DNA from: Thermoflexus sp.
GTDB taxonomy: Bacteria > Chloroflexota > Anaerolineae > B4-G1 > SLSP01
Length of the DNA: 46,986 nt
Direction of reading: 5' to 3'
Assembly: GCA_020722365.1 (NCBI GenBank)
Contig: DYKY01000002.1
Coordinates: 8,266 to 55,251, forward strand
Below the pieces are notes generated by a model, which was not told the DNA's origin, made no database searches, and saw only the letters and a list, made by a program, of their open reading frames with translations. A program made the translations under genes and the position numbers. Positions 8,773 through 45,530 of the stretch are shown here, in pieces. Each line of letters starts with the position of its first letter. The first letter of the stretch is position 1.

Positions 8773-9861
8773 ATGCGGATTGCGTTGGTGCATGATTGGC
8801 TGAACCAGTACGGCGGTGCAGAGCGGGTTTTGGAGCACCTCGTCGAGCAGTTTCCGGACGCGCCGGTCTACACGAGCATGTACTGGCGCGAGAAGATGCC
8901 CGCTGCATACCAAACCTGGGATATCCGCACGACGTGGATGGATCGCTTGCCGGGCGTGTACCGGCGGCATCAGTGGTATTTCCCCTTGTACGCGCTGGCT
9001 TTTGCCACGCTTGATGTGCGTCATCAAGGCTACGACGTGATCCTCAGCAACAAAAGCGGCTTCTGTCACGGCGTCCGTGCGGGCGAGACACCGCAGGTGT
9101 GCTACTGCCTCGCGCCGACGCGCTATGTGTGGGAGTTCGACGCTTACGCGGCCCGCGAGAACCTGCCGGGCGCGCTCAAAGTGTTGCTCAAGCCAGTTGT
9201 TGCTCTGCTGAAGCGTTGGGACTATCGCGTTGCTCAGCGCCCGACGACACACTTCGTCGCCATCTCCACAGAAATTCAGGAGCGCATCCGGAGCTACTAT
9301 CACCGCGATTCGAGTATTATCTATCCGCCGGTGGATGTGGAACGCTTCAGCCCGGCTCCGCAGCACGAGGATTACTACCTGATCGTTTCGCGGTTGATTC
9401 CCTACAAGCGCATCGATCTGGCCGTGGAAGCGTTCAACCGGCTTGGTTTGCCGCTGCGGGTTGTCGGCAGCGGGCGCGACCGCGAAGCCTTGGAGACGCT
9501 GGCGAAGCCAAACATCACGTTTATGGGCTACGTCCCCGATGCAGATTTGCCGGATTTGTTGGCGCGCTGCAAGGCATTTATCTTTCCGGGGCGTGAGGAT
9601 TTCGGGATCGCGCCATTGGAAGCGCAGGCTTCCGGACGTCCGGTGATTGCTTACGGCGCTGGGGGCGCGTTGGATTCGATCGTCGAGGGTGAGACGGGGG
9701 CATTCTTCCGTGAGGCGACGGCAGAATCCCTTGCGCAGGCTGTGCTGTCCTTCGACGCTGACCGCGTGGATCCGCTGGCTTGTCGCTCCAACGCCGAACG
9801 TTTCTCCGTCCCGCGTTTCCAGCAAGAGCTGTTGGCCACCCTCACGTGCGTTTTAGAATGA
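8773..9861 (+). CDS. Family 4 (GT-B fold) glycosyltransferase
   Basis: The 362-residue protein is a GT4-type transferase. The acceptor-binding half opens with VHDWLNQYGGAERVLE, a glycine-rich loop typical of the family. The donor-binding half has VSRLIPYKRIDLAV near residue 210 and GREDFGIAPLEAQASG near residue 275, where the paired glutamates (E-x7-E) contact the nucleotide sugar. There is no signal peptide or membrane segment, so it acts in the cytoplasm or at the inner face of the membrane, probably in cell-surface or exopolysaccharide synthesis. The sugar and the acceptor cannot be read from sequence. It is preceded by 160 bp of repeat-rich spacer and is convergent with the next gene. Confidence 0.85.
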   Translation: MRIALVHDWLNQYGGAERVLEHLVEQFPDAPVYTSMYWREKMPAAYQTWDIRTTWMDRLPGVYRRHQWYFPLYALAFATLDVRHQGYDVILSNKSGFCHGVRAGETPQVCYCLAPTRYVWEFDAYAARENLPGALKVLLKPVVALLKRWDYRVAQRPTTHFVAISTEIQERIRSYYHRDSSIIYPPVDVERFSPAPQHEDYYLIVSRLIPYKRIDLAVEAFNRLGLPLRVVGSGRDREALETLAKPNITFMGYVPDADLPDLLARCKAFIFPGREDFGIAPLEAQASGRPVIAYGAGGALDSIVEGETGAFFREATAESLAQAVLSFDADRVDPLACRSNAERFSVPRFQQELLATLTCVLE

Positions 9862-9867
9862 GCGAGT

Positions 9868-9917
9868 GGGCGAATCAGCGAATGGGCGAATTTGCCTGAT
9901 TACTCGTTACCCATTAC
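9868..9917. repeat. Short octamer and heptamer arrays between convergent genes
   Basis: Three octamers ending in CGAAT (9868-9875, 9876-9883, 9884-9891) are followed by three heptamers ending in TTAC (9897-9903, 9904-9910, 9911-9917). The last heptamer directly abuts the stop codon of the minus-strand gene. The octamer GGGCGAAT/CAGCGAAT recurs at 35598-35621. Confidence 0.75.
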
Positions 9918-13602: not shown

Positions 13603-13675
13603 AGTCCCCGGTGAGACTCGAACTCACAACCCCCTGGTTCGAAGCCAGGTGCGCTGTCCATTGCGCCACGGGGAC
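13603..13675 (-). tRNA. tRNA-Arg (anticodon UCG)
   Basis: On the minus strand all four stems close: a 7-bp acceptor (GTCCCCG with CGGGGAC), a 4-bp D stem GCGC, a 5-bp anticodon stem CCTGG/CCAGG with loop CTTCGAA, and a GTGAG/CTCAC T stem with loop TTCGAGT. The anticodon TCG reads CGN arginine codons. CCA is not encoded. The discriminator position would be T, which is uncommon for arginine tRNAs. Confidence 0.95.
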
Positions 13676-13697
13676 TGGAAGACATATCCTCAAGGAT

Positions 13698-13726
13698 ATA
13701 AAAAGCCGGACACACTGGCCCGGCTT
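13698..13726 (-). terminator. Terminator between the two tRNA genes
   Basis: AAGCCGG at 13703-13709 pairs with CCGGCTT at 13720-13726 around a 10-nt loop. On the minus strand the stem runs into TTTTTATA. It would end a tRNA-His transcript before tRNA-Arg, implying separate or attenuated expression of the two. Confidence 0.75.
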
Positions 13727-13730
13727 CTAG

Positions 13731-13804
13731 GGTGACTGGTGGGACTCGAACCCACAGTTGCCTGAGTCACAGTCAGGAGCCTTAACCATTAGGCCACAGC
13801 CACC
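13731..13804 (-). tRNA. tRNA-His (anticodon GUG)
   Basis: On the minus strand the acceptor stem GTGGCTG/CAGTCAC (one G-T pair), D arm, anticodon stem CCTGA/TCAGG with loop CTGTGAC, and T arm GTGGG/CCCAC with TTCGAGT all form. The anticodon is GTG. A genomic G at position -1 (complement of 13804) faces C73 (complement of 13731), the identity pair of histidine tRNAs. Confidence 0.95.
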
Positions 13805-17142: not shown

Positions 17143-19263
17143 ATGAGTGATCGTAAATCAGAGCCTGCACCCGAACAAAAGGGCGGGTCTGCTGTCAATC
17201 TGGAGACGCGGCGAATGCGTGGCCTTTCGCAGCGGTTGCGGCAGCCACTATTCCCGCGACCAGAACCCTCGGTGGCGCCGAAATCCTCAGCGTCGCCACA
17301 AACGCATCTGGTGGAGGAGCCGCTTTCGGGAACGCCGGCCGGTGTGCCTGCTGCTAAACCTGACGGTTCAGTATCAGGTGCAGCGGCATCGGCAGAAACG
17401 CAGCAAATTGCCGGGAAGCCTCAGGTCTCGTATGAAGGCTTGCTTTCGGCGGGGGTGCAATTGCAAGGTCGCTACAAGATCCTGGGGGTCATCGGGATCG
17501 GTGGTATGGGGGCAGTTTACAAGGCTCAAGACTTGCGTTTTCCGGGCGTATTGCGTTTGTGCGCGGTGAAGGAGATGATCAACACGGCATTGGACTCGCA
17601 AGTGCGACAGATGATCGTGCGCAACTTCGAGCGCGAGGCGAGTATTCTGGCGACACTGGGGCATCCCGCGATCCCACAGGTTTACGACTACTTTACCGAA
17701 GGCTCGCGCTGTTATCTGGTCGAAGAGTTCGTGACGGGCAAGGACCTCGAGGCGCGCCTGGCAGAGGCGGAAGGCTTTTTCTCCGAGGGCATGGTCGCCG
17801 ATTGGGCTGTGCAGCTCTGTGAGGTGCTTTCGTATTTGCATAACCACAAACCGCGTCCGATCATCTTTCGAGACTTGAAGCCCTCCAACATTATGTTGGA
17901 CGATCATGACCGGATCCGTCTAGTTGATTTTGGCATTGCTAAGCTTTTTCAGAGTGGCGAGAAGGGCACGATGATTGGCACCGAGGGCTATTCTCCCCCG
18001 GAGCAGTATCGCGGTATCGCCGAACCACGCGGTGATATCTATGCGCTCGGCGCCACGTTACACCATCTCTTGAGCAAACAGGATCCACGCCTGGAGCCGC
18101 CTTTCTCTTTTCATGAGCGTCCTATCCATAAGACAAATCCTACCGTTTCCCGCGAATTGATCGGGGTGATCGACAAAGCGCTGGAGTATGACATTAACAA
18201 GCGTTGGGGGTCGGCGGAAGAATTCCGGCGCGCTCTCGCCGCCAGCCTTTCGATCAAGATCGGCAGCGGATCGTTGGGTGACAAAACGGCAACTTTTGAT
18301 ACGGGCGTTGTCAAACCGCTGTGGAAGTTTGCCTGTGAAGATGAAATCCGCGGCTCGGTGACGGTAGCTGACGGTATGGTTTTTGTGCCTTCGTATGACC
18401 ACAATGTGTACGCTTTAGCTGAGGATAACGGTAAATTCTTGTGGAAGTATCCGACCGAAGGCGGCATTGCCTGCAAACCCTGGGTCTCCGAAGGGATGGT
18501 AATTTTTGGTTCGATCGACAAAGTGATTTATTCCGTGGATGTTAGAACCGGACATTTGCTGTGGACGGCGCCGACACAAGGGCGGATTTTCTCGTCGCCC
18601 TTTGGCGAGTTAGGGCACATTTTCATCGGTTCTGACGATCGACAAATCTATGCCATCCACCAGATGTCTGGTCGGCGCGCGTGGACCTATGCGGCAGATG
18701 GCGAAATCCGTTCGCGGCCGCTGGTGGCAGAGAGTTTGATTCTGTTTGCATGCCAGATGGGTATGGTGTACGCGTTGAGCTTAAACCGCGAACAACGCTG
18801 GCGTTTCCGCGCGCGACGCGGCTTTCTAGCCTCACCGGTGATGCACAATGGATTGGTATTCATTGGATCGCTGGACAATCATTTCTATGCCCTGGATGTG
18901 CGCTCCGGTTGGGCTGCCTGGAAGTACCGATCTGGCGGAAGCATTGTCTCGACGGCGGTGATTTGGAAAAACATGGTCTTTTTTGGATCCAGCGATGGCT
19001 TCGTATATGCTTTGGATGCTGACGACGGGCGTGTCGTCTGGCGTTATCAAACCGATAACCAGATCACCGCTGCCGCGAACGTCGCCGAGGGCAATCTCTA
19101 CATTGGTGGTGTGGACGGCAATCTGTATTGCTTCGATGCGCTTACCGGGGCTGTGCGTTGGCATTATCAGACCGATGGCCCGATCACCGGCGCACCACAG
19201 ATTGCCGATGGCATTGTCTATATAGGTTCTGCGGATCATTACGTGTATGCGATTCCGATGTGA
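17143..19263 (+). CDS. Ser/Thr protein kinase with C-terminal PQQ propeller
   Basis: The 706-residue protein has a Pro/Ser-rich, probably disordered N terminus (1-105) and a Hanks-type kinase domain (about 110-375): glycine loop IGIGGMGAVYKA, CAVKEM with the ATP lysine, FRDLKPSN as catalytic loop (F replaces the usual H of HRD), DFGIAK, and GTEGYSPPEQY in place of APE. From about 385 to the end come seven or so PQQ/quinoprotein-type blades, with repeated YALD, W.Y.TD and VY.GS words, which probably form a ligand-binding propeller. There is no membrane span, so the sensor part is intracellular, unlike PASTA kinases. It heads the operon and faces the PP2C phosphatase 20 bp downstream. Confidence 0.9.
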   Translation: MSDRKSEPAPEQKGGSAVNLETRRMRGLSQRLRQPLFPRPEPSVAPKSSASPQTHLVEEPLSGTPAGVPAAKPDGSVSGAAASAETQQIAGKPQVSYEGLLSAGVQLQGRYKILGVIGIGGMGAVYKAQDLRFPGVLRLCAVKEMINTALDSQVRQMIVRNFEREASILATLGHPAIPQVYDYFTEGSRCYLVEEFVTGKDLEARLAEAEGFFSEGMVADWAVQLCEVLSYLHNHKPRPIIFRDLKPSNIMLDDHDRIRLVDFGIAKLFQSGEKGTMIGTEGYSPPEQYRGIAEPRGDIYALGATLHHLLSKQDPRLEPPFSFHERPIHKTNPTVSRELIGVIDKALEYDINKRWGSAEEFRRALAASLSIKIGSGSLGDKTATFDTGVVKPLWKFACEDEIRGSVTVADGMVFVPSYDHNVYALAEDNGKFLWKYPTEGGIACKPWVSEGMVIFGSIDKVIYSVDVRTGHLLWTAPTQGRIFSSPFGELGHIFIGSDDRQIYAIHQMSGRRAWTYAADGEIRSRPLVAESLILFACQMGMVYALSLNREQRWRFRARRGFLASPVMHNGLVFIGSLDNHFYALDVRSGWAAWKYRSGGSIVSTAVIWKNMVFFGSSDGFVYALDADDGRVVWRYQTDNQITAAANVAEGNLYIGGVDGNLYCFDALTGAVRWHYQTDGPITGAPQIADGIVYIGSADHYVYAIPM

Positions 19264-24560: not shown

Positions 24561-27500
24561 ATGCATAAATCGTCTTCGTGGTGGTTGTGGGCCACATTTC
24601 TGATCCTCATCATACTCGGATTGACAGGTTGCGAGCAGATACTTGTCAGCCTACCTGCATCTACCGCAACGTCCACGCCGGAACCCACGGCAACAATCGC
24701 GGCGACCCCTACGGCGACGCCAGAGCTGCCCGAGGGACCTTATCCGCCGGTTTTGCTCGGCTATGAACCACGTTTAGGTCAGGAAGTCGCTGCCGATGCG
24801 GCTACAATCAAGCTCTATTTCGATCAGCCGATGGATCAGGCAAGCGTCGCTGCGGCGTTGCGCGTGATGCCGCCTCTTGAAGGCGACTTTGAGTGGCCGG
24901 ATGATGCGACACTCGTTTTTCGTCCACGTGTCGTCGCGGCATCCACTCGCTACCGGGTGACATTGGCGGGCAATATGCGTTCGGCGGCGGGATTGCCCTT
25001 GTCCACAGAACTCTCTTTCGCCTTTTCGACGCTCGCGCCTTTGGCAGTTACGCGGGTGACACCGGCTGCTGGTTCACTCGACGCACGCGTTGATGCGCCG
25101 GCCCTGATCGTTTTTAATCGCGCCATCGTTCCACTCGCCTGCGTGGGGAAACCGGCGCAAGCGGGCGGCGAATGTCCCGCCCTTTCCTTGAGCTTTGAAC
25201 CTGCCGTTTTGGGTACGGGGATGTGGGTGGAAACGCCCGTTTACCGTTTCGATTCGTTGCGTGGGTGGGCTGCCGGCCGGGCGTACACCGCTACCCTGGC
25301 GGCGAATGTGGTGAGCGTGGAAGGGGTGGCGCTCTGCGATCCGGTGACCTGGTCTTTCAACACCGCATCCCCCGTGATTCAGGCAAGCATCCCGGCCGAG
25401 GGACAATCGGAAACTCCCCTGGAGACGGACATCCGCGTGATCTTCAATACACCGATGGATCAGGAAATTACCGGTAGCGTTTTCAGCATTGTCAATGAGG
25501 CGGGCGAGGCCGTTCCTGGTGCGATCACGTGGGAGGACAACGGAGCCGAGTTAGTCTTTACCCCCTTGACACGCTTGGACCTGGGGATGCGCTATACCGT
25601 GCAGGTCGGTGCGCGCGCGCGCGCGGCTACCAGCGCTCCTCTGGAGAACCCTCACAGTTGGACCTTCACTACCGTACCGTATCCGGCCCTCGTGGTCACT
25701 GCCCCTCAAGATGGGGCGGAGGACGTAGACGTCGCCGAGCCGGTGCGTCTGGCGTTTTCCGGCGCACTCGATGCGGCGACGCTGGCGCGACGCATCACCA
25801 TTACGCCGACGGTGGAAAATCCATACACCTATTTCGACGTAGCCGCGAATGTGTACAATCTTTCCTGGGAGAAACAACCGCAAACAGAGTATTGCGTGCA
25901 GCTTAAGCCGGGCATTGCCGATGTGTATGGCAACGTGATTACAACAAGCTATAGATCGTGTTTCGTGACCGGTGATTTACCGGCCTTCATCGCTCCGGCA
26001 AGCGCGGACAGTGCGGTAACGCTCGATGCGTCACAACCATCACAGCTTTACTTTTTGTTGCAGAATCGTGCTCGCGTTTCCTTCACGCTTTCTGAAGTGG
26101 CCGAGGCGGATTTTGTGCGTGGGCAGGATGTCGAAGGTGTTGTGGTTCGCAAGTGGCGGGAGACATTCACCGTACCGCGCAACACACCCTCGGTTGTCAC
26201 GCTGTTTTTGCGACGTCTCGCTAGCGCGCTGCCGACGGGTTATTATCACCTCGCGTGGGAGAATCCGCCATGGGGAAGGCAATCCCTCAACTTTGCAGTG
26301 GTAGATCGTCACCTGACGTTGAAACTGTCGGCGGAAGAGGCGCTGGTTTGGGTCACAGATTTGCGCAGCGCCGAACCCATCAGCCGCACCGCTGTGCGCC
26401 TGGTGGATCGCGCGGGGCTGCTTATCGCCGCCGGTACGACGGATGAGGATGGTTTGGCGCACATCCCTATCAGCCCGCGCGAAGATTTGTGGGAGAACGT
26501 AGCGGCAGTTGTCGGTGAACCCGGCGCGGCGGAATTTGGCGTGGCGCTGACTTCGTGGATGGGTGAGGCGGCACCGTCCGCCCTCGGGATTGCGCTCGAT
26601 GGCAGCATACTGTCGCCCTTTGTCGTCCACGTGTATACCGACCGGACGAGCTATGAGCGGGGGGAGGTGGTCCACTTCCGGGGGATACTGCGGGAAGAGG
26701 AAGGCCGTTATCTGCTGCCTTCGCTCGATGTGCCCATGCGGGTGATTTTACGCGAGGCCGTGGGGCGGGGAGTTTATTCGACCACGGTTGCACTGTCGGA
26801 TATGGGGACGTTTTCCGGCGCGTTGACGCTCTCAGAGAGCCTGGGGGTGGGAGACTATGTGCTTGAGGCATCCTTGTCCGGTGACGGCAATAACAGCCGG
26901 GGAACGGCCACCTTTGCTGTTGTCGCCCCCCGCGAGACCGCGTTGACCGTCGCTGTTTTGCCGGAGACGGCGGATTTGTTAAGCGGCGATCTAGTACGCG
27001 CCGTTATCACTGTCGATGATGTCTCCGGCGTCCCGGTAGCTGCCGCGCAGTTGACATGGACCGTTTACGCCCAAAGTTATCCGCTGTCGGTAGTCCCCTC
27101 TGAGGCGTGGCAGTGGCCTGAGGGCGCATTGGGCGATCCCGTTCTGGTTGCCTCGGGAGAAGCCGAGACGGATGCGGACGGCTGTTTTGCCCTCGAATTG
27201 CCGGCGGAGATACGGTCGTTCGGCCCGCAGCGCTGGATCATTGAGGCCACCGTGCATGGTGCAGCCACACGCGATACGCGCTTTCTGCCGGTCAGTGGGC
27301 AGGGGCAGGTGATCGTTCACCCGTCGCATTTTTACCTGGGCATGCGGCCGCGAGAGTGGGTGGCGCGTGCCGGTATGCGAACCGAAATCAGCCTCCTGGC
27401 GCACGACTGGGCGCAGCAACCGGTCGCCGGACAAGAGATCGCCGTCTCGTTGACCCACCGCGAGTGGTACCGTCTTCCTGGGGAGGATGCGCCCACGTGG

Positions 27501-30500
27501 GGCTACACCGACACCGTCGTCTCCACCGTTCGCGTGACAACGGATTCTGAGGGCCAGGCCGTGGCGACGCTCGTTCCACCGCACAGCGGCACTTACATCG
27601 TCGCAGCGGATACGCTGGATGCGGACGACCATCCCGTACATACCGAGATTATGGTGTGGGTGAGTGGTACGGAGACGGCATCCTGGCCGGTGGAAGCGAA
27701 CCAGGTCACGCCCGTTGCCGACGCGCGCGTGTATGATGTGGGTGACCGGGCCAGAATCCTGTTGCCGGTGGCGTTCGACGGTCCATATCAAATGTTGATG
27801 ACGGTAGAACGCGACGGCATCCTCGCCGTCGAGCGGCAGGTCTTAGACACGCCGAACCCTGTGGTGGAGATACCGATTATCGAGGATTACGTCCCGAATG
27901 TCTACGTCTCGTTTGTGCTGATTCACGGCGTCACCGAGACGCTGGCTGCGCCTGAGGTGCGAGCCGGTTACGTGATGGTGAAGGTTGCCCCCACTGCCCA
28001 GACATTGAAAGTCACCGCACTGCCTGACAAGACGGCGTACCGACCGGGGGACACTGTGACTCTGACCGTGCATACGGTCGATGCCGCCGATCGCCCGGCA
28101 GACGCGGAGGTAGGCGTGGCATTGGTGGATAAGGCGCTGCTGTCACGCGGAGTCAGCGTTCCCTCCCTGGTCGAGGCGTTCTACGGCGTGCGTCCCTTGC
28201 AGGTGATGACGGGCGATGGGCTGCTGGCGCTCTCCGGTCGCCAGGATGAGCTTATGTCGGCCGAGGAGGCTGCGTATCGTATGGTTCGCTTTGGCGAAGG
28301 CGTAACCTCACCTGTTTCAGCCGGCGCACGCTTCGCCGATGCTGTGGTGTGGGAGGGCGACAGGCGTACCAGTGCAAGCGGCGAGACGAAGCTTACCTTT
28401 GTCCTGCCTGATACGCCTGCGACGTGGGTAGCGGTGGTTTACGCGCTTACCGCCAACACAAAAGTTGGCGAGGCGCAGGTGGAGATTGTCGCCGCCCAGC
28501 CGCTGCGCATCCAACCCGTGACGCCGCGCTTTCTGGTGATGGGGGATCAGGCGGAAGTCGCCGCCTTGTTGTACAATCACACGGACAAGCCTTACTCGGG
28601 TGCCGTGCAGTTGACGGCGGGGGCGGGAGCGCGAGTGGATACATTGATACGCATGGTTGATCTGCCTGCGGGCGGGCGGGCGCGCGTGGTGTGGACAGTT
28701 TCCGTCACACCGAGCAACGCTGAGACACTGGCGTTGGCTTTCACGGCTACAGGGGGCGGATATCGGGACGGGATTTCCGTCGAGTTACCCCTTTATCGCT
28801 ATGTGATGCCGGACGTGATAGGGACTGCCGGTGTGCTTGACGAGGCCGGGACACGTCTGGAAACGGTGCTGGTTCCGCCAGAGGGTGGGGATGATAGTGT
28901 GTTAATTGTGCGCGTCGCTTCTTCCCCGGTCGGGGCGCTGGTAGACACGCTGACGTACCTGGACCAATATCCTTACGCCTCTACGGATGTGTTGATCGAG
29001 CGTTTTGCATCCTATGTCTTCACCTACCGCGCGCTTCAGGAGTTGGGTGTTTCGGATGCTGTCCTGCTGGCGCGCCTGCAAACTTCAATTGTTCAAGCCC
29101 TGGAGAAACTCTATGCGCGCCAAAACGCGGACGGTAGTTGGGATTGGTGGGAAGGACAAAGCGCGCGCGAAGATTTCGCGCGCGAAGATTTCGCACGCGA
29201 AGACTTCGCACGCGAAGACTTCGCGCTGCATCTTACGGCATTTGCAACCCTGGGATTAATCAGGGCAGAACGCGCAGGCTTTGACGTGCGCCAGGAAGTC
29301 CTGGAGCGGGCACTTGATTACATTTACGACAATCTCATGCTGAGCTTGTCCGGCGCGGCGCGCCGGCCACATCATGCTTTGGGGCTGTACGTATTGTCGG
29401 ATGCGGGGATTCCCTGGCCTTCCGGCGCCGGCGGAGCGCTGTACGCCGGGCGTGACTCATTGGGTGTCGTGGGACGTGCCTATCTGGCGCTGGCGGTAGG
29501 AACATCCGATCCTTCGGACTCGCGGCTGTTGGTTCTGCTGGATGGATTGCGGAGCGAAGCCAAGTTGTCGACAACAGGTGCGCACTGGGCAGGTGCGGGT
29601 GATACGATTGCCGGTGACGGCGGCAGCATGTACGGGGATACCGATGTCGTTGTTACCAGCATCGCCGTGGACGCATTAGCGCGTTTTGCGCCCAATGATC
29701 CACTGTTGGCCCAGGCCGCGCGTTGGTTGATGGTCACGCAGCGTGGCGGACGGTGGCAGACAACGTATGAGACAGCCTGGGCTATCGCCGGTCTGTCTGA
29801 TGTGTTGCGCGCTTCTGGCAATCTGGCGTCGGACTATGATTGGAGTGTTGCACTGAACGGTGTGACGTTGACGGAGTCTACGGTGCAAGCTGGTGCGAGC
29901 GATGCCGTGGTTGCCGTCCCATGGCAGTTGAAGGCCGGGCTTTTGACCGAGAACGGCGCAGGTGAAAGCCCTCTTCCAATTTTGTTGCGGGATCGCCCCA
30001 ACATTCTGGAGATTGCCCGTGGCAGTGGGATAGGTCAACTGTACTACACCGCACATCTGGAATTATCCGCTCCGGTGGCGCAGATTGCGGCGGAAAGCCG
30101 CGGATTGATGCTGCGCCGGGAGTACTGCGCTGTTGAGGATGGTACGTCTGTAAACCGGGTGGTCGCCCTGGCGGATTGCCGTCCGCTGACCGAATTACGT
30201 GTCGGTGAACAGGTGATGGTCCGCCTGACCCTGATTGCTCCGCAGGCGCGCGCCTACGTGCGCCTGGAAGTCCCGCATCCGGCGGGGTTTGTTCCGGTTG
30301 ATATGACCTCCGGTGTGACAACGGACTGCGCGCTGGATCAAGGCACAGGTTGGTGGGCGGCGCCCTTCGAGTGGTGTGAGGTGGTGGACGATGGGCGGGA
30401 ATCCTCGCGCGTGGTCTTTTTCGCCTCTGAAGTGGCGGCGGGGACATACCAGGTGGTGTACCTGTTGCGCGCGGTCATACCGGGAACTTACGGAGCGCTG

Positions 30501-30590
30501 CCGGCCGTCGTTTCCGAAGTCCATTTTCCCGAAGTGTGGGGGCGCAGCGCAGGTGATGTGTTGTACATTGTTCCGCAATCTCAAGATTGA
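24561..30590 (+). CDS. Lipoprotein alpha-2-macroglobulin with SbsA-type Ig domains
   Basis: The 2009-residue protein has a lipoprotein signal peptide (lipobox LTGC, Cys at residue 24) and a Thr/Pro-rich linker. About four Ig-like SbsA (Big_5) domains follow to residue 480, each with a word like IKLYFDQPMD or IRVIFNTPMD. Then come macroglobulin MG domains, an A2M block near 1270 (VWEGDRRTSASGETKLTFVLPDTPATW), and an alpha-alpha toroid near 1460-1800. In bacterial macroglobulins the toroid start reads YPYGCxEQ and forms a thioester that traps proteases; here it is YPYASTDV, so Cys and Gln are absent and no thioester can form. Other members without a thioester are known. A 60-bp tandem repeat lies in the toroid. 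It probably protects the cell surface. Confidence 0.9.
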   Translation: MHKSSSWWLWATFLILIILGLTGCEQILVSLPASTATSTPEPTATIAATPTATPELPEGPYPPVLLGYEPRLGQEVAADAATIKLYFDQPMDQASVAAALRVMPPLEGDFEWPDDATLVFRPRVVAASTRYRVTLAGNMRSAAGLPLSTELSFAFSTLAPLAVTRVTPAAGSLDARVDAPALIVFNRAIVPLACVGKPAQAGGECPALSLSFEPAVLGTGMWVETPVYRFDSLRGWAAGRAYTATLAANVVSVEGVALCDPVTWSFNTASPVIQASIPAEGQSETPLETDIRVIFNTPMDQEITGSVFSIVNEAGEAVPGAITWEDNGAELVFTPLTRLDLGMRYTVQVGARARAATSAPLENPHSWTFTTVPYPALVVTAPQDGAEDVDVAEPVRLAFSGALDAATLARRITITPTVENPYTYFDVAANVYNLSWEKQPQTEYCVQLKPGIADVYGNVITTSYRSCFVTGDLPAFIAPASADSAVTLDASQPSQLYFLLQNRARVSFTLSEVAEADFVRGQDVEGVVVRKWRETFTVPRNTPSVVTLFLRRLASALPTGYYHLAWENPPWGRQSLNFAVVDRHLTLKLSAEEALVWVTDLRSAEPISRTAVRLVDRAGLLIAAGTTDEDGLAHIPISPREDLWENVAAVVGEPGAAEFGVALTSWMGEAAPSALGIALDGSILSPFVVHVYTDRTSYERGEVVHFRGILREEEGRYLLPSLDVPMRVILREAVGRGVYSTTVALSDMGTFSGALTLSESLGVGDYVLEASLSGDGNNSRGTATFAVVAPRETALTVAVLPETADLLSGDLVRAVITVDDVSGVPVAAAQLTWTVYAQSYPLSVVPSEAWQWPEGALGDPVLVASGEAETDADGCFALELPAEIRSFGPQRWIIEATVHGAATRDTRFLPVSGQGQVIVHPSHFYLGMRPREWVARAGMRTEISLLAHDWAQQPVAGQEIAVSLTHREWYRLPGEDAPTWGYTDTVVSTVRVTTDSEGQAVATLVPPHSGTYIVAADTLDADDHPVHTEIMVWVSGTETASWPVEANQVTPVADARVYDVGDRARILLPVAFDGPYQMLMTVERDGILAVERQVLDTPNPVVEIPIIEDYVPNVYVSFVLIHGVTETLAAPEVRAGYVMVKVAPTAQTLKVTALPDKTAYRPGDTVTLTVHTVDAADRPADAEVGVALVDKALLSRGVSVPSLVEAFYGVRPLQVMTGDGLLALSGRQDELMSAEEAAYRMVRFGEGVTSPVSAGARFADAVVWEGDRRTSASGETKLTFVLPDTPATWVAVVYALTANTKVGEAQVEIVAAQPLRIQPVTPRFLVMGDQAEVAALLYNHTDKPYSGAVQLTAGAGARVDTLIRMVDLPAGGRARVVWTVSVTPSNAETLALAFTATGGGYRDGISVELPLYRYVMPDVIGTAGVLDEAGTRLETVLVPPEGGDDSVLIVRVASSPVGALVDTLTYLDQYPYASTDVLIERFASYVFTYRALQELGVSDAVLLARLQTSIVQALEKLYARQNADGSWDWWEGQSAREDFAREDFAREDFAREDFALHLTAFATLGLIRAERAGFDVRQEVLERALDYIYDNLMLSLSGAARRPHHALGLYVLSDAGIPWPSGAGGALYAGRDSLGVVGRAYLALAVGTSDPSDSRLLVLLDGLRSEAKLSTTGAHWAGAGDTIAGDGGSMYGDTDVVVTSIAVDALARFAPNDPLLAQAARWLMVTQRGGRWQTTYETAWAIAGLSDVLRASGNLASDYDWSVALNGVTLTESTVQAGASDAVVAVPWQLKAGLLTENGAGESPLPILLRDRPNILEIARGSGIGQLYYTAHLELSAPVAQIAAESRGLMLRREYCAVEDGTSVNRVVALADCRPLTELRVGEQVMVRLTLIAPQARAYVRLEVPHPAGFVPVDMTSGVTTDCALDQGTGWWAAPFEWCEVVDDGRESSRVVFFASEVAAGTYQVVYLLRAVIPGTYGALPAVVSEVHFPEVWGRSAGDVLYIVPQSQD
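29163..29222 (+). repeat. In-frame 15-bp minisatellite (AREDF x4) in the macroglobulin gene
   Basis: Four tandem 15-bp units encode AREDF four times (residues about 1535-1554). Copies 1-2 and 3-4 differ by two silent changes each (GCG/GCA and GAT/GAC), so the array grew by duplication under reading-frame constraint. Junctions contain the palindrome TTCGCGCGCGAA. Confidence 0.92.
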
Positions 30591-34532: not shown

Positions 34533-35573
34533 CTATTTACTTGCTGACCACGCGCGCGCCGCAGCCAGCAACGCATCGATGTTTTCTGGGCGTGTTCCCG
34601 GTGAAACGCCGCCGCCGAACGAGAGGATCATCCCCCCGCCCGGTGCAGCTTTATCCAGGCATTCCTTCGCCCACTGTGCGACCTCTTCTGGCGTTCCGCG
34701 CACGCCCATATCCAGCGGGGGCACGTTGCCCATCAGCGCAACCCGGTGTCCCATTGCTTCTTTGACCTTGGCGATGTCCACCTCGTGGCTGAAGTTAAAG
34801 ACGTCGAAATTCGCGTCGGCCAGGCTTTCCAGCAGGTGGGGACAAGGGGTGTCGTTGTGATAGATACGGATCAGACCCTCGAATTCATCGAAGATGCGGC
34901 GGAGATGCGGATGGACCATCTTCCCGTAATGGCGCTTCGACACCATGCCGACGAGGTCGTCCAACACCATGATGCCCTCCGGCGCCTTGAGCACGTCCAG
35001 TTGCGCGTGGAGCCAGCGGATGATGGATTCGGTCACCGTCTCCAAAAGTTTACTCGTCTTTTCCGGTTCGGTGACCAGCCCCATCATCAAAGGGGATATG
35101 CCCAATAACCACGAAGCCACCGTCATTGGCCCACGGGCACAGACCATCTTGATGCCCAGGCCTTCGGCCTGCAAACGCGCGTCCATCACTTCGTAGAGGC
35201 GCAATACCAACGGCATGAGGCCATCCTCTTGTGGATTCGCGGGTTTGGCAGTTGCCCAAAAATCCAGGTCCGGTATTAGCGGCTCGATCGAGGGCGGTCG
35301 ATTGTTGAAAAAACGCACCTTGGTGCCAAAGGCTGAAGGCTCGGCCGCCATGCCAAACTCGACCCAAAAGCCGGGAATCCACACAGCGCCGGGGAAACGC
35401 TCCAACAGCCCTTTGTTGATCGTCAACCACTTCTCTGGGAAAAGAAAATAATCCCGCGTATCGATGCCCGCGTAGCCGGGTAGCCATGGGCTGTCCACAA
35501 TCAACCCTACCGGAACCTGTTCCGGCTCACCCAACCGCGCCGCGACTTTGAAATTGTCCCACACTGTGCTCAT
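34533..35573 (-). CDS. Uroporphyrinogen decarboxylase-family protein
   Basis: The 346-residue protein has the UroD barrel of the branch that holds corrinoid-dependent methyltransferases (MtaA, CmuA) and uncharacterised relatives, rather than HemE. Recognisable parts are VARGPMTVASWLLG (as CARGPMTVA), LDDLVGMVSKRHY, IYHNDTPCPHLLESLA, in which His and Cys could bind a metal, and MGNVPPLDMGVRGTPEEV near the C terminus, followed by the glycine-rich GGGMILSFGGGVSPGTRPENI. HemE's N-terminal arginine motif for its tetrapyrrole carboxylates is not visible. It has no operon partner or corrinoid protein next to it, so the substrate is open. The ATG at 35573 is preceded by AAGGAGGAGC. Confidence 0.8.
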   Translation of the reverse strand: MSTVWDNFKVAARLGEPEQVPVGLIVDSPWLPGYAGIDTRDYFLFPEKWLTINKGLLERFPGAVWIPGFWVEFGMAAEPSAFGTKVRFFNNRPPSIEPLIPDLDFWATAKPANPQEDGLMPLVLRLYEVMDARLQAEGLGIKMVCARGPMTVASWLLGISPLMMGLVTEPEKTSKLLETVTESIIRWLHAQLDVLKAPEGIMVLDDLVGMVSKRHYGKMVHPHLRRIFDEFEGLIRIYHNDTPCPHLLESLADANFDVFNFSHEVDIAKVKEAMGHRVALMGNVPPLDMGVRGTPEEVAQWAKECLDKAAPGGGMILSFGGGVSPGTRPENIDALLAAARAWSASK

Positions 35574-35597
35574 TTTGCTCCTCCTTCCTTCGAAAAT

Positions 35598-35621
35598 CGG
35601 CGAATCGACGAATCAGCGAAT
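35598..35621. repeat. Octamer repeat (NNNCGAAT)
   Basis: Three 8-bp units CGGCGAAT, CGACGAAT and CAGCGAAT follow the start region of the UroD-family gene. CAGCGAAT is also found in the array at 9868-9891, so the two sites share one repeat family. Confidence 0.7.
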
Positions 35622-35676
35622 TAAGAAATCCGGTACGACAGAGTATAAGTTCTCTTTGGTGAGATGTCAAAAAAGC

Positions 35677-35823
35677 AATCAGCTATCAGCAATCAGCTAT
35701 CAGCAGTCAGCTATCAGCAGTCAGCTATCAGCAGTCAGCTATCAGCAGTCAGCTATCAGCAATCAGCAATCAGCTATCAGCAGTCAGCTATCAGCAATCA
35801 GCAATCAGCTATCAGCATCCAGC
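35677..35823. repeat. Heptamer array, WRTCAGC family (21 units)
   Basis: Twenty-one uninterrupted 7-bp units read AATCAGC, TATCAGC or AGTCAGC, with TATCAGC mostly alternating with the others; the last is ATCCAGC. The reading frames through it give only Ser/Gln/Ala-rich peptides and are not genes. It lies in a 412-bp gap without genes between divergent transcription units. Confidence 0.95.
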
Positions 35824-35942
35824 AACCCGTAACCCACAATCCGTAACCCACAACCCACAATCCGTAACCCACAACCCACAACCCGTAACCCACAACCCGT
35901 AACCCACACCCCACAACCCGTAACTCGCAACTCATAACCCGC
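35824..35942. repeat. Heptamer array, AACCCRY family (17 units), in phase with the preceding array
   Basis: Directly after the last WRTCAGC unit, with no change of register, come seventeen 7-bp units: AACCCGT, AACCCAC, AATCCGT and variants, with decayed copies (AACTCGC, AACTCAT) near the end at 35942. The sequence resembles a telomere repeat but the period is 7, and the unit changes along the array. About 40 bp separate it from the SDR start at 35986. Confidence 0.93.
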
Positions 35943-35985
35943 AACTATTTCTTGCATATCTCCTGCTTTTGCCTATACTCAAAGT

Positions 35986-36826
35986 ATGATTCATCCGCAG
36001 CTTGAGAACAAAGTCATCCTGATTACCGGCGCGAACCACGGCATTGGCGCGGCGACGGCGCGGGCGTTAGCGGCGCAAGGGGCGAAAGTCTTCATTACCT
36101 TCTACCGCGTTCCGTGTCGCTACACGGAACAAGAACTGGTGCAGGCGCTCGACGCCGGGACCGGTGGGGACGCGCTGTACTGCGCGATCCAGCAGCGGAC
36201 CGCCGACGCGCTCGTGGACGACATCCGGGCGCAGGGCGGGCCGCCGTGGCGCTTGAGGCCGACCTTGCTGATCCCGCCACCGTCCCGTTGCTCTTCGACC
36301 GCTGCGAAGCCGAACTCGGTCCGGTGGACGTACTCGTCAACAACCACACCTACTGCGTCCTCGAAACCTTCGACCCGGCCCGCGTCACGGATGAAGAGAG
36401 CGGCGTCCGTTTGCTCACCGCGCCCGTCATCGACGCGCACTTCGCGGTCAATGCGCGCGCCTACGCCCTGCTGATGGCCGAGTATGTCCAACGCTACCTG
36501 AAACGGAACGCGCGCTCAGGCCGCATCATCAACCTGAGCACCGATGCCGCGCACGCCCACGAGTCCAACGTCAGCTACGCCGCCAGCAAGCACGCGATTG
36601 AATCGTACAGCCGTTCGGCGGCTTCGGAACTGGGGCAGTATACGGCATCACCGTCAACATCGTGGCTCCTGGTCCGATCCAGACCGGCTACATCACGCCG
36701 CAGTCGGAAGCGGAGATTGCCGCCGGGACCCCGCTTGGCCGCATCGGCGAACCTGAAGACGTGGCGGACGTCATCGTCTTCTTCGCCTCCGAGCAGGCGC
36801 GATGGCTGACGGGGCAACTGCTGTAG
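35986..36826 (+). pseudogene. Short-chain dehydrogenase/reductase, frameshifted twice and truncated
   Basis: Three frames join to give one SDR. Frame one (from 35986) has the NAD(P)-binding TGANHGIGAATARAL. Around 36235-36243 the frame moves back by one base and continues ALEADLADPATVPLLFD, DVLVNN, RIINLST and the catalytic VSYAASKHA. Near 36645 another one-base shift follows, and it ends with TVNIVAPGPIQTGYI and RWLTGQLL. Both shifts equal single-base losses in GC-rich runs, so sequencing error is possible. The C terminus stops at WLTGQLL, where family members go on with YVGGG and more; there the sequence becomes a DUF2283 fragment. It is therefore truly truncated, whatever the origin of the shifts. 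An ATG at 35986 is preceded by only a weak ribosome site. Confidence 0.8.
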
Positions 36827-43867: not shown

Positions 43868-45507
43868 GAGATAGTGTGACACAATCTAGCGAATTCCCTC
43901 CACTTTTGATAGAAAACTTGTCCTTCCAATACCGGACGCGCGAGCAACCGGCAATTGAGGATGTGTCGTTCACGCTGCATGCGGGCGAGCTGCTGCTCGT
44001 GGCCGGGTCCAGCGGCTGCGGCAAGACGACGCTCATCCGCTGCATCAACGGGCTGGTTCCCCGCAGTTACAAGGGCAACCTGCAGGGGCAAGTGTTGCTC
44101 CACGGGCAAGATATTTCCGACATGCCGTTGTCGCGCATCTCGCAGATCGTCGGCACGGTGCTGCAAGACCCGGAACGCCAAATCCTGGGGGCGCACGTCT
44201 TCACCGAGGTCGCCTTCGGCCTGGAGAACCTGGGCCTGCCGCGCGACGAAATCCGCCAGCGGGTGGATGAGACGCTCGACTACCTGGGGATTGCCCATCT
44301 GCGCGACCGCGAGACCTTCTACCTCTCCGGCGGCGAGAAACAGAAGGTGAGCCTCGCCGGGGTGTTGGCGATGCGGCCCGACATCCTCTTGCTCGATGAA
44401 CCGCTCGCCAGCCTCGATCCGGCGAGCGCGCGGGAGGCGCTGGCGCTCTTCCGCCGTCTGGCCGACGAGGGCGTGAGTATCCTCCTGGTTGAACACCGGG
44501 TCGAGGATGCGTTGGGCATCCGCCCCGACCGGGTGCTCTTTATGCAGGATGCCAGGATCGTCCACGCCGGCCCGCTGGACGAGGTGATGGGGTTGATGGA
44601 TTACCGCCAGGTCAAGCTGCCTGCGCCAGTTGTGATGGAGCGCGCGGCCAAAGTGCCGCTTCCGCCCTTCGAGCCGGCGATCAAGCCCAACGGACGCGAT
44701 CCGCTGGTGACGTTCGAGGATGTTGCGTTTTCCTACGAAAGCGGCGCGGAGGTCATCCATGGCGTCAATCTCACGCTGCGTCACGGCGACATCACGGCGA
44801 TCCTCGGCCCGAACGGTGCGGGGAAGACGACGCTGGTCAAACACGCCATCGGCCTGCTGAAACCCAGCCAGGGTCGCGTGCTGGTCGAAGGAACCGACAC
44901 CCGCAAAATGAGCGTCGCGCAGATCGCGCACACGTTGGGCTACGTGTTCCAAAGCCCCAGTCACATGCTTTACGCGCCGACCGTGCGCGAGGAGCTGGCC
45001 TTTGGGCCAAAAAACCTGGGCTTCAGCAAAGAGGCCATCGAAGCCGGCGTCGGCGAGGCGCTCGATGCCGTCAACGTGCGCGCGTTGGCGGATTATCCGC
45101 CGCTTTCGCTCTCCTTCGGGCAGCAGAAGCGGGTCAGCATCGCGGCGGTGTTGGCGATGCGCTCCAAAATCCTGGTGATGGATGAGCCGACCGCCGGGCA
45201 GGATTACTGGAATTATATCGCCTTTATGGATTCCATCCTGCAGACGCCGGGATTTGCGGCCATCCTCTTCATCACGCACGATCTCGATCTGGCGATTTGC
45301 TACGCCAACCGGGTCGTGCTGATGCATGGGGGCCAAGTCGTCGGCGACGGGGCGCCATCCGAGGTTCTGGCCGATCTTGACTTGCTGGAGCGCTGCCGCC
45401 TGGTACCGACGTCGCTGTTGAAGGCGAATTTGGCGCATCTGCCGGAGACGGGACGCTTTATGTCGGCGGAAGCGTTGGCGCATGCTCTAGTAGACAGTAG
45501 ACGGTAG
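43855..45507 (+). CDS. ECF transporter ATPase with two fused nucleotide-binding domains
   Basis: The 550-residue protein joins two EcfA/CbiO-type domains. The first (about 20-255) has Walker A GSSGCGKTT, Q-loop, signature SGGEKQKVSLAG and Walker B ILLLDEPLAS; the second (about 285-515) has GPNGAGKTT, signature SFGQQKRVSIAA and LVMDEPTAG. In most ECF transporters these are separate EcfA and EcfA' subunits; the fused form is known from YkoD and related proteins. It supplies ATP energy to the S component and EcfT downstream. The ATG at 43855 lies in the protease gene; a GTG at 43876 is an alternative start. The stop codon lies inside a heptamer array, which codes for the last residues VDSRR. Confidence 0.88.
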   Translation: MVGVRDSVTQSSEFPPLLIENLSFQYRTREQPAIEDVSFTLHAGELLLVAGSSGCGKTTLIRCINGLVPRSYKGNLQGQVLLHGQDISDMPLSRISQIVGTVLQDPERQILGAHVFTEVAFGLENLGLPRDEIRQRVDETLDYLGIAHLRDRETFYLSGGEKQKVSLAGVLAMRPDILLLDEPLASLDPASAREALALFRRLADEGVSILLVEHRVEDALGIRPDRVLFMQDARIVHAGPLDEVMGLMDYRQVKLPAPVVMERAAKVPLPPFEPAIKPNGRDPLVTFEDVAFSYESGAEVIHGVNLTLRHGDITAILGPNGAGKTTLVKHAIGLLKPSQGRVLVEGTDTRKMSVAQIAHTLGYVFQSPSHMLYAPTVREELAFGPKNLGFSKEAIEAGVGEALDAVNVRALADYPPLSLSFGQQKRVSIAAVLAMRSKILVMDEPTAGQDYWNYIAFMDSILQTPGFAAILFITHDLDLAICYANRVVLMHGGQVVGDGAPSEVLADLDLLERCRLVPTSLLKANLAHLPETGRFMSAEALAHALVDSRR

Positions 45508-45530
45508 ACAGTAGACGGGTGAAGGGTAAA
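45489..45530. repeat. Heptamer array spanning the ATPase stop codon
   Basis: Four 7-bp units RGTAGAC (45489-45516) and two GGGTRAA units (45517-45530) run through the stop codon at 45505-45507. The last five codons of the ATPase come from it. As in the large array, unit sequence changes while the register is kept. Confidence 0.88.

Follow-up and report, generated by a model that had tools for sequence, protein, structure and literature searches.

Results

The heptamer array between two divergent genes

The window, which is the whole stretch of DNA that was analysed (46,986 nucleotides from a Thermoflexus genome), contains a 412-bp gap separating two divergent genes, and the heptamer array sits in this gap. 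The gene on the minus strand (34533–35573) encodes a 346-aa URO-D-domain protein, either a methyltransferase or uroporphyrinogen decarboxylase-like. On the plus strand, a short-chain dehydrogenase gene (35986–36809) is split over two or three reading frames by apparent frameshifts or sequence errors, and its Pfam match is divided between two frames; it is either a pseudogene or affected by errors in the sequence. The gap also holds a short 8-bp array, AATCGGCG AATCGACG AATCAGCG (35595–35621, plus strand), and a sigma-70-like promoter facing the URO-D gene (TTGACA-17-TATACT, 35642–35670, minus strand) that matches at 11/12 positions and ends 6 bp before the heptamer array, where the promoter scan would be expected to give 0.5 sites of at least 9/12 in the region by chance. 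Just after the array, a weak promoter-like pair facing the dehydrogenase gene (TTGCAT-16-TATACT, 35952–35979, plus strand) was picked out by eye as a candidate and was not reported by the scan. URO-D orthologues in genomes G001 and G035 (82% and 79% identity) have no array upstream and lie in other contexts, so that a syntenic counterpart of the gap was not found among them; for the dehydrogenase flank, the genus offers no clear orthologue.

The array itself occupies 35677–35942 and comprises 266 bp, or 38 × 7, free of indels and in a single register throughout. Its first half (35677–35816, plus strand) consists of 20 heptamers of the form WRTCAGC (AATCAGC, TATCAGC and AGTCAGC). Unit 21 is a junction heptamer, ATCCAGC (35817–35823, plus strand), also in register, and it is followed by the 17 AACYCRY-type heptamers of the second half (units 22–38; 35824–35942, plus strand), which include AACCCGT, AACCCAC, AATCCGT, ACCCCAC, AACTCGC, AACTCAT and AACCCGC. 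A further four bases (AACT) extend the array to 35946. The initial annotation had described 21 WRTCAGC and 17 AACCCRY units; the 38 units in phase were confirmed, but one of the 21 is transitional, leaving 20 clean copies, and the second-half consensus is wider than proposed and better written as AAYYCRY or AACYCRY, two units being AATCCGT and two carrying AACTC.

Self-matching within the array was 75% at lag 7, 80% at lags 21 and 35, and highest, at 84%, at lag 14; lags other than multiples of 7 gave 14–33%. Tandem Repeats Finder (TRF) reported periods of 7, 14 and 35 bp in the first half and 14, 21 and 35 bp in the second, and the same nesting is visible in the order of the units. With A for AATCAGC, T for TATCAGC and G for AGTCAGC, the first half runs A T A T G T G T G T G T A A T G T A A T, in which a repeat of two units gives way to one of five. 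With P for AACCCGT, H for AACCCAC, Q for AATCCGT and h for ACCCCAC, the order given for the second half is P H Q H H Q H H P H P H h P, which contains three-unit and two-unit repeats. Such blocks of two, three and five units are the record of expansion that slippage or unequal recombination would leave, and the slipped replication suggested in the initial annotation fits.

Of 148 contig ends of the draft genome, 11 lie in arrays, compared with 0.2% of random positions. The longest stretch repeated exactly within the array at 35677–35942 is 55 bp, which matches the array length left at several contig ends. Contigs L082, L107, L114, L117, L118, L128 and L131 end in 7- or 8-bp arrays, often after 54–55 bp, a length within perfect arrays that looks like the assembler's word length. 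As contigs end inside arrays, the number and length of arrays are underestimated genome-wide. These figures would suit an artefact in which unrelated arrays were joined or copies collapsed; however, the sequence at the junction is unique and includes an intermediate unit, most of the array is varied enough internally to be made up of unique words, and in-register changes of a similar kind are common elsewhere in the genome. Misassembly, a concern of the initial annotation, is thus not supported, and we regard it as extremely improbable. Taken in its entirety the array is probably genuine, while the count of 38 is not secure and the number of units in the part with the 14-bp period may be too low.

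A change of unit without a change of register

When the two families were compared in the observed register, their mean identity was 3.31 of 7 positions, and the next best rotation gave 2.75. Column shuffling reached the observed similarity in 8.7% of trials (P about 0.09), and homology of the two families is therefore likely, although unproven from similarity alone. Units of intermediate sequence occur in the array, namely ATCCAGC at the junction and AATCCGT. Elsewhere, 54/73 adjacent pairs of similar heptamer runs were uniquely in phase, against a chance of about 1 in 7, but most of them differ by one letter and overlap and are thus in phase by construction, so that composite arrays are better evidence. 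Three of these were found in the organism's own genome, running CATCCGC-AACTCGT-AACTCGC-CATTCGC (contig L060), GATTCTT-GATTCGC-AACTCGC (L056) and AGCCCAC-AACCCAC-AACTCGC (L006). In other taxa, among the matches listed, WRTCAGC arrays continue without loss of register as AATCGTC, TATCAGG, AGTCCTT, CGTCAGT or AGCCAAC, examples being AATCAGC followed by AATCGTC and TATCAGC followed by TATCAGG. The initial annotation had taken the constant period combined with a change of sequence as a sign of a process that depends on spacing. No such process is needed, since drift by substitution followed by re-expansion leaves the register of an array intact, the intermediates are present, and a spacing sensor is superfluous.

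Periods 7 and 8 predominate in the genome and its relatives

Genome-wide numbers rest on samples, the main one being 977 kb (0.98 Mb) of the 3.95-Mb genome. Exact tandem runs, defined as at least 14 matches at a given lag, numbered 67 for period 7, 23 for period 8, five each for periods 6 and 9, and 0–1 for each of periods 2–5 and 10–13; multiples of 7 and 8 were also visible. A third-order Markov control of 0.98 Mb gave essentially no runs, and no period-7 run of this kind, and intergenic DNA as a background showed only slightly raised autocorrelation at lags 7 and 8. TRF found 74 period-7 and 18 period-8 loci in the same sample, which by extrapolation corresponds to about 300 and 70 loci, respectively, in the whole genome, and the array at 35677–35942 was one of four 7- or 8-bp loci of at least 150 bp. 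The congeners G001 and G002 showed the same predominance of periods 7 and 8, and the array is probably one among hundreds with 7- or 8-bp units that this bacterium and its relatives carry. The genome-wide count proposed in the initial annotation thus shows that what is constant is the period rather than the sequence. Its proviso that other arrays might have varied periods applies in part, period 8 being common (about a third of the period-7 count) and other periods below 14 being rare.

The 8-bp arrays of the window (9856–9891 and 35595–35621) are of the GAATCAGC/GAATGGGC type, in which the 8-bp unit is the heptamer AATCAGC with one additional G, and 7- and 8-bp arrays can directly adjoin each other (L335:4454–4522 and L313:1300–1480). 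The window opens with a perfect 7-bp array of TCTTGAT (1–32) just upstream of a ferredoxin-type gene. It also includes a 15-bp in-frame repeat of 4.3 copies (29162–29226), encoding the peptide AREDF four times, within a gene (24561–30590; 2009 aa) that by our reading is alpha-2-macroglobulin-like.

Of 76 period-7 loci, 51 were outside genes, though 81% of the sample is gene; gene calls came from a simple script, and some of the arrays placed inside genes lie in doubtful open frames. The unit sequences form a network of single substitutions, with 53 links compared with 20 in random sets (maximum 29), and they are fewer than expected: 59 independent loci drew on 32 unit classes, against the 57 predicted by the heptamer content of intergenic DNA. 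Unit classes held in common with two congeners numbered 9 and 11, with about 1 expected.

Possible dispersal of arrays

A small unit repertoire common to several species would also be expected of a dispersed repeat family, in which an enzyme (e.g. a tyrosine transposase of the REP type) or template switching copies arrays from site to site, the array studied here being one landing. GTAGACR arrays form a dispersed family in the genus: in each of four congeners their pattern gave 47–100 hits, and the reversed control gave none. Two further genomes of the family had 70 and 38 hits, and the other 34 had none. Neighbouring arrays form 33 inverted pairs versus 117 direct pairs, some making hairpins with a GGGG..CCCC centre. 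PF01797 genes are present in 6/6 GTAGAC-positive genomes versus 18/34 negatives, but this association is weak (chance about 0.035, hypergeometric count), and the organism's own three PF01797 loci have no GTAGAC arrays nearby. The array at 35677–35942 moreover has neither an inverted partner nor element ends, and shared units could also come from common ancestry of founder arrays. We therefore consider dispersal quite unlikely as the source of this array. A REP/RAYT origin in particular was rejected: REP elements are short palindromes tagged GTAG or CGTC beside a RAYT gene, the array is a direct repeat without a strong palindrome, and the PF01797 loci of the genome lack heptamer arrays.

GTAGACR arrays often occur as inverted pairs around a GGGG..CCCC centre, with examples at L311:15807–15880 and 17160–17231. 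The copy of GTAGACR within the window (45489–45519) is present in G001 and absent at the same site in the congeners G002 and G003, and it lengthens the 3′ end of an ABC-transporter gene.

Regulation and DNA structure

The array spans the space between two core promoters, the 11/12 site before it and the weaker one just after it, and might accordingly be a cis-regulatory spacer that tunes one or both genes by its length or through protein binding in 7-bp steps, possibly with phase variation. Several observations argue against this reading. Divergent gaps were not enriched, containing 6/39 period-7 loci compared with 123/531 of all gaps of at least 100 bp, and convergent gaps were not depleted (5/39 compared with 72/531). 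The orientation of period-7 arrays relative to the local coding strand was unbiased (40:36), the URO-D orthologues in G001 and G035 lack an upstream array, and the dehydrogenase gene appears broken. Orientation relative to GC skew was also unbiased (33:43), and no sign of the binding protein with 7-bp steps that the initial annotation had suggested was found in orientation, skew or divergent-promoter context. A general regulatory role of the arrays is not supported; for this array a regulatory spacer is unlikely, though it might have a local role at the predicted promoter pair.

The units are more asymmetric in purine and pyrimidine content than background, 59/76 having at least 5/7 bases of one kind (background 47%). 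On its minus strand the second half reads GGGTTRY and carries two predicted G-quadruplex motifs (35868–35891 and 35896–35919), which are the only two non-overlapping G3N1-7 ×4 motifs in the window; at least four G-tracts of at least three bases at 7-bp spacing occur in two stretches, both confined to the second half. As the G-rich heptameric repeats of Xanthomonas and Nostoc fold into quadruplexes (PMC4692102), the second half might act as an element similar to Xanthomonas GGGAATC that drives instability or regulation. However, G-tracts are missing from the first half, most of the heptamer families in this genome (e.g. AATCATG, AAAGTTG and ACCGTCT) are unable to form quadruplexes, and the period-7 rule holds without G-tracts, making a quadruplex element a very unlikely explanation of the array.

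A structured RNA was rejected as well: an Rfam scan of the window found no structured-RNA family at the array (its only matches were two tRNAs, 13603–13803), and single-strand folding was stronger than that of shuffled sequences only because of weak hairpins that recur in the first half.

Occurrence in other taxa

Arrays of four WRTCAGC units were found in at least 116 stretches of public genomes, which among the matches listed belong to Cyanobacteria, Chloroflexota, Acidobacteria, Nitrospirota, Planctomycetota, Bacteroidota, Pseudoalteromonas, Streptomyces, Helicobacter and others. Viral contigs yielded a further 31 such stretches. Within the phylum of the window, three-unit arrays occurred in 20/301 genomes. 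The similar arrays that the initial annotation ascribed to cyanobacteria do exist, as (WRTCAGC)n in contigs of Moorena, Microcoleus and Oscillatoria. Other arrays more than 500 bp away on the 116 stretches listed had period 7 at 76 loci and periods 6, 8 and 9 at 3, 4 and 6 loci, respectively, in stretches that were chosen for a 7-bp array and are thus not a random genome sample. Comparison of cyanobacterial arrays with those of the genus gave 3 unit classes in common, where 2.9 were expected by chance, and 11 loci using those 3 classes, where 3 were expected; with the number of classes at chance level, sharing of a unit repertoire across phyla was rejected.

Discussion

The array has the features of a heptameric simple sequence repeat, being a 7-bp tandem beyond chance expectation that is intergenic and of a type found at many loci of the genome. 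It is similar to the cyanobacterial STRR and other bacterial heptameric repeats in its 7-bp tandem unit, intergenic position, many loci and several unit families. It differs from the cyanobacterial STRR in lineage and favoured units, in the presence of two families in one register within one array, and in the 8-bp class that is also common here; the gene content of the window is, in our judgement, not that of a cyanobacterium. PMC4692102 cites work on heptameric simple sequence repeats of bacteria (Mrazek and others 2007), and it attributes to an earlier study both the over-representation of heptameric repeats in bacteria and the idea of a 7-bp polymerase slippage, in which the repeat length reflects how much DNA the polymerase holds. 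Chloroflexus aurantiacus has heptamer satellites, (GATAGRA)n, that are likewise dispersed at many loci of one genome, with a different unit (PMC6749651). The TAACTGA direct repeats of Beggiatoaceae, cyanobacteria and Bacteroidetes also form intergenic arrays of mixed heptamers, which show indels in 7-nt steps between strains (PMC4679880), and the units AACTCGY and AACTCAT found here are one or two letters from TAACTGA. In Beggiatoaceae, however, these repeats for the most part closely precede start codons and have a single orientation (PMC4679880), whereas no preferred orientation or position was seen here. The Xanthomonas GGGAATC and Nostoc GGGGATT repeats (PMC4692102) resemble the minus strand of the second half in having GGG every 7 bp, and close convergent repeat pairs have been reported for them too (PMC4692102), but the first half and most other families here have no G-tracts.

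Taken together, we consider it probable that this is a non-coding heptameric slippage array that has drifted by substitution, of a kind common in the intergenic DNA of the genus. A short heptamer duplication would have been expanded in whole units and in blocks of two, three and five by replication slippage (or unequal recombination). Point substitutions at one end may then have led from WRTCAGC through intermediates like ATCCAGC or AATCCGT to AACCCRY, or in the reverse direction, with both versions of the unit re-amplified locally and the register never broken. The register, the nested blocks, the preference for 7 and 8 bp across the genome and the many other in-register changes of unit are observed; the direction of change, the role of slippage as the engine and the neutrality of the array are inferences. 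The array most likely has no sequence-specific function, and we propose that it is tolerated because the space between two divergent promoters can accommodate it.

If slippage started from random seeds, nearly as many unit classes as loci would be expected, and the restricted, shared repertoire is counter-evidence to this, implying that certain heptamers were seeded or favoured, or that a few founder families were inherited, in addition to slippage. Nor does slippage by itself give a reason for steps of 7 and 8 rather than 5, 6 or 9–12. A limited set of heptamers could be seeded at many sites by an active process, be it templated addition, template switching or a transposase, with the machinery setting the 7- or 8-bp step and the array here representing two such units joined in register; we give this only a small chance of being correct. 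The array is an unusually long case of something ordinary in this genome, and both heptamer arrays and the polymerase-length idea are already published. It is nevertheless a clear and dense example of an old and poorly explained pattern, namely why the tandem repeats of many lineages take a step of 7 bp. The genus is a good test bed for this question, as 7- and 8-bp arrays are common and other short periods nearly absent, the unit repertoire is small and shared, and arrays come and go between congeners.
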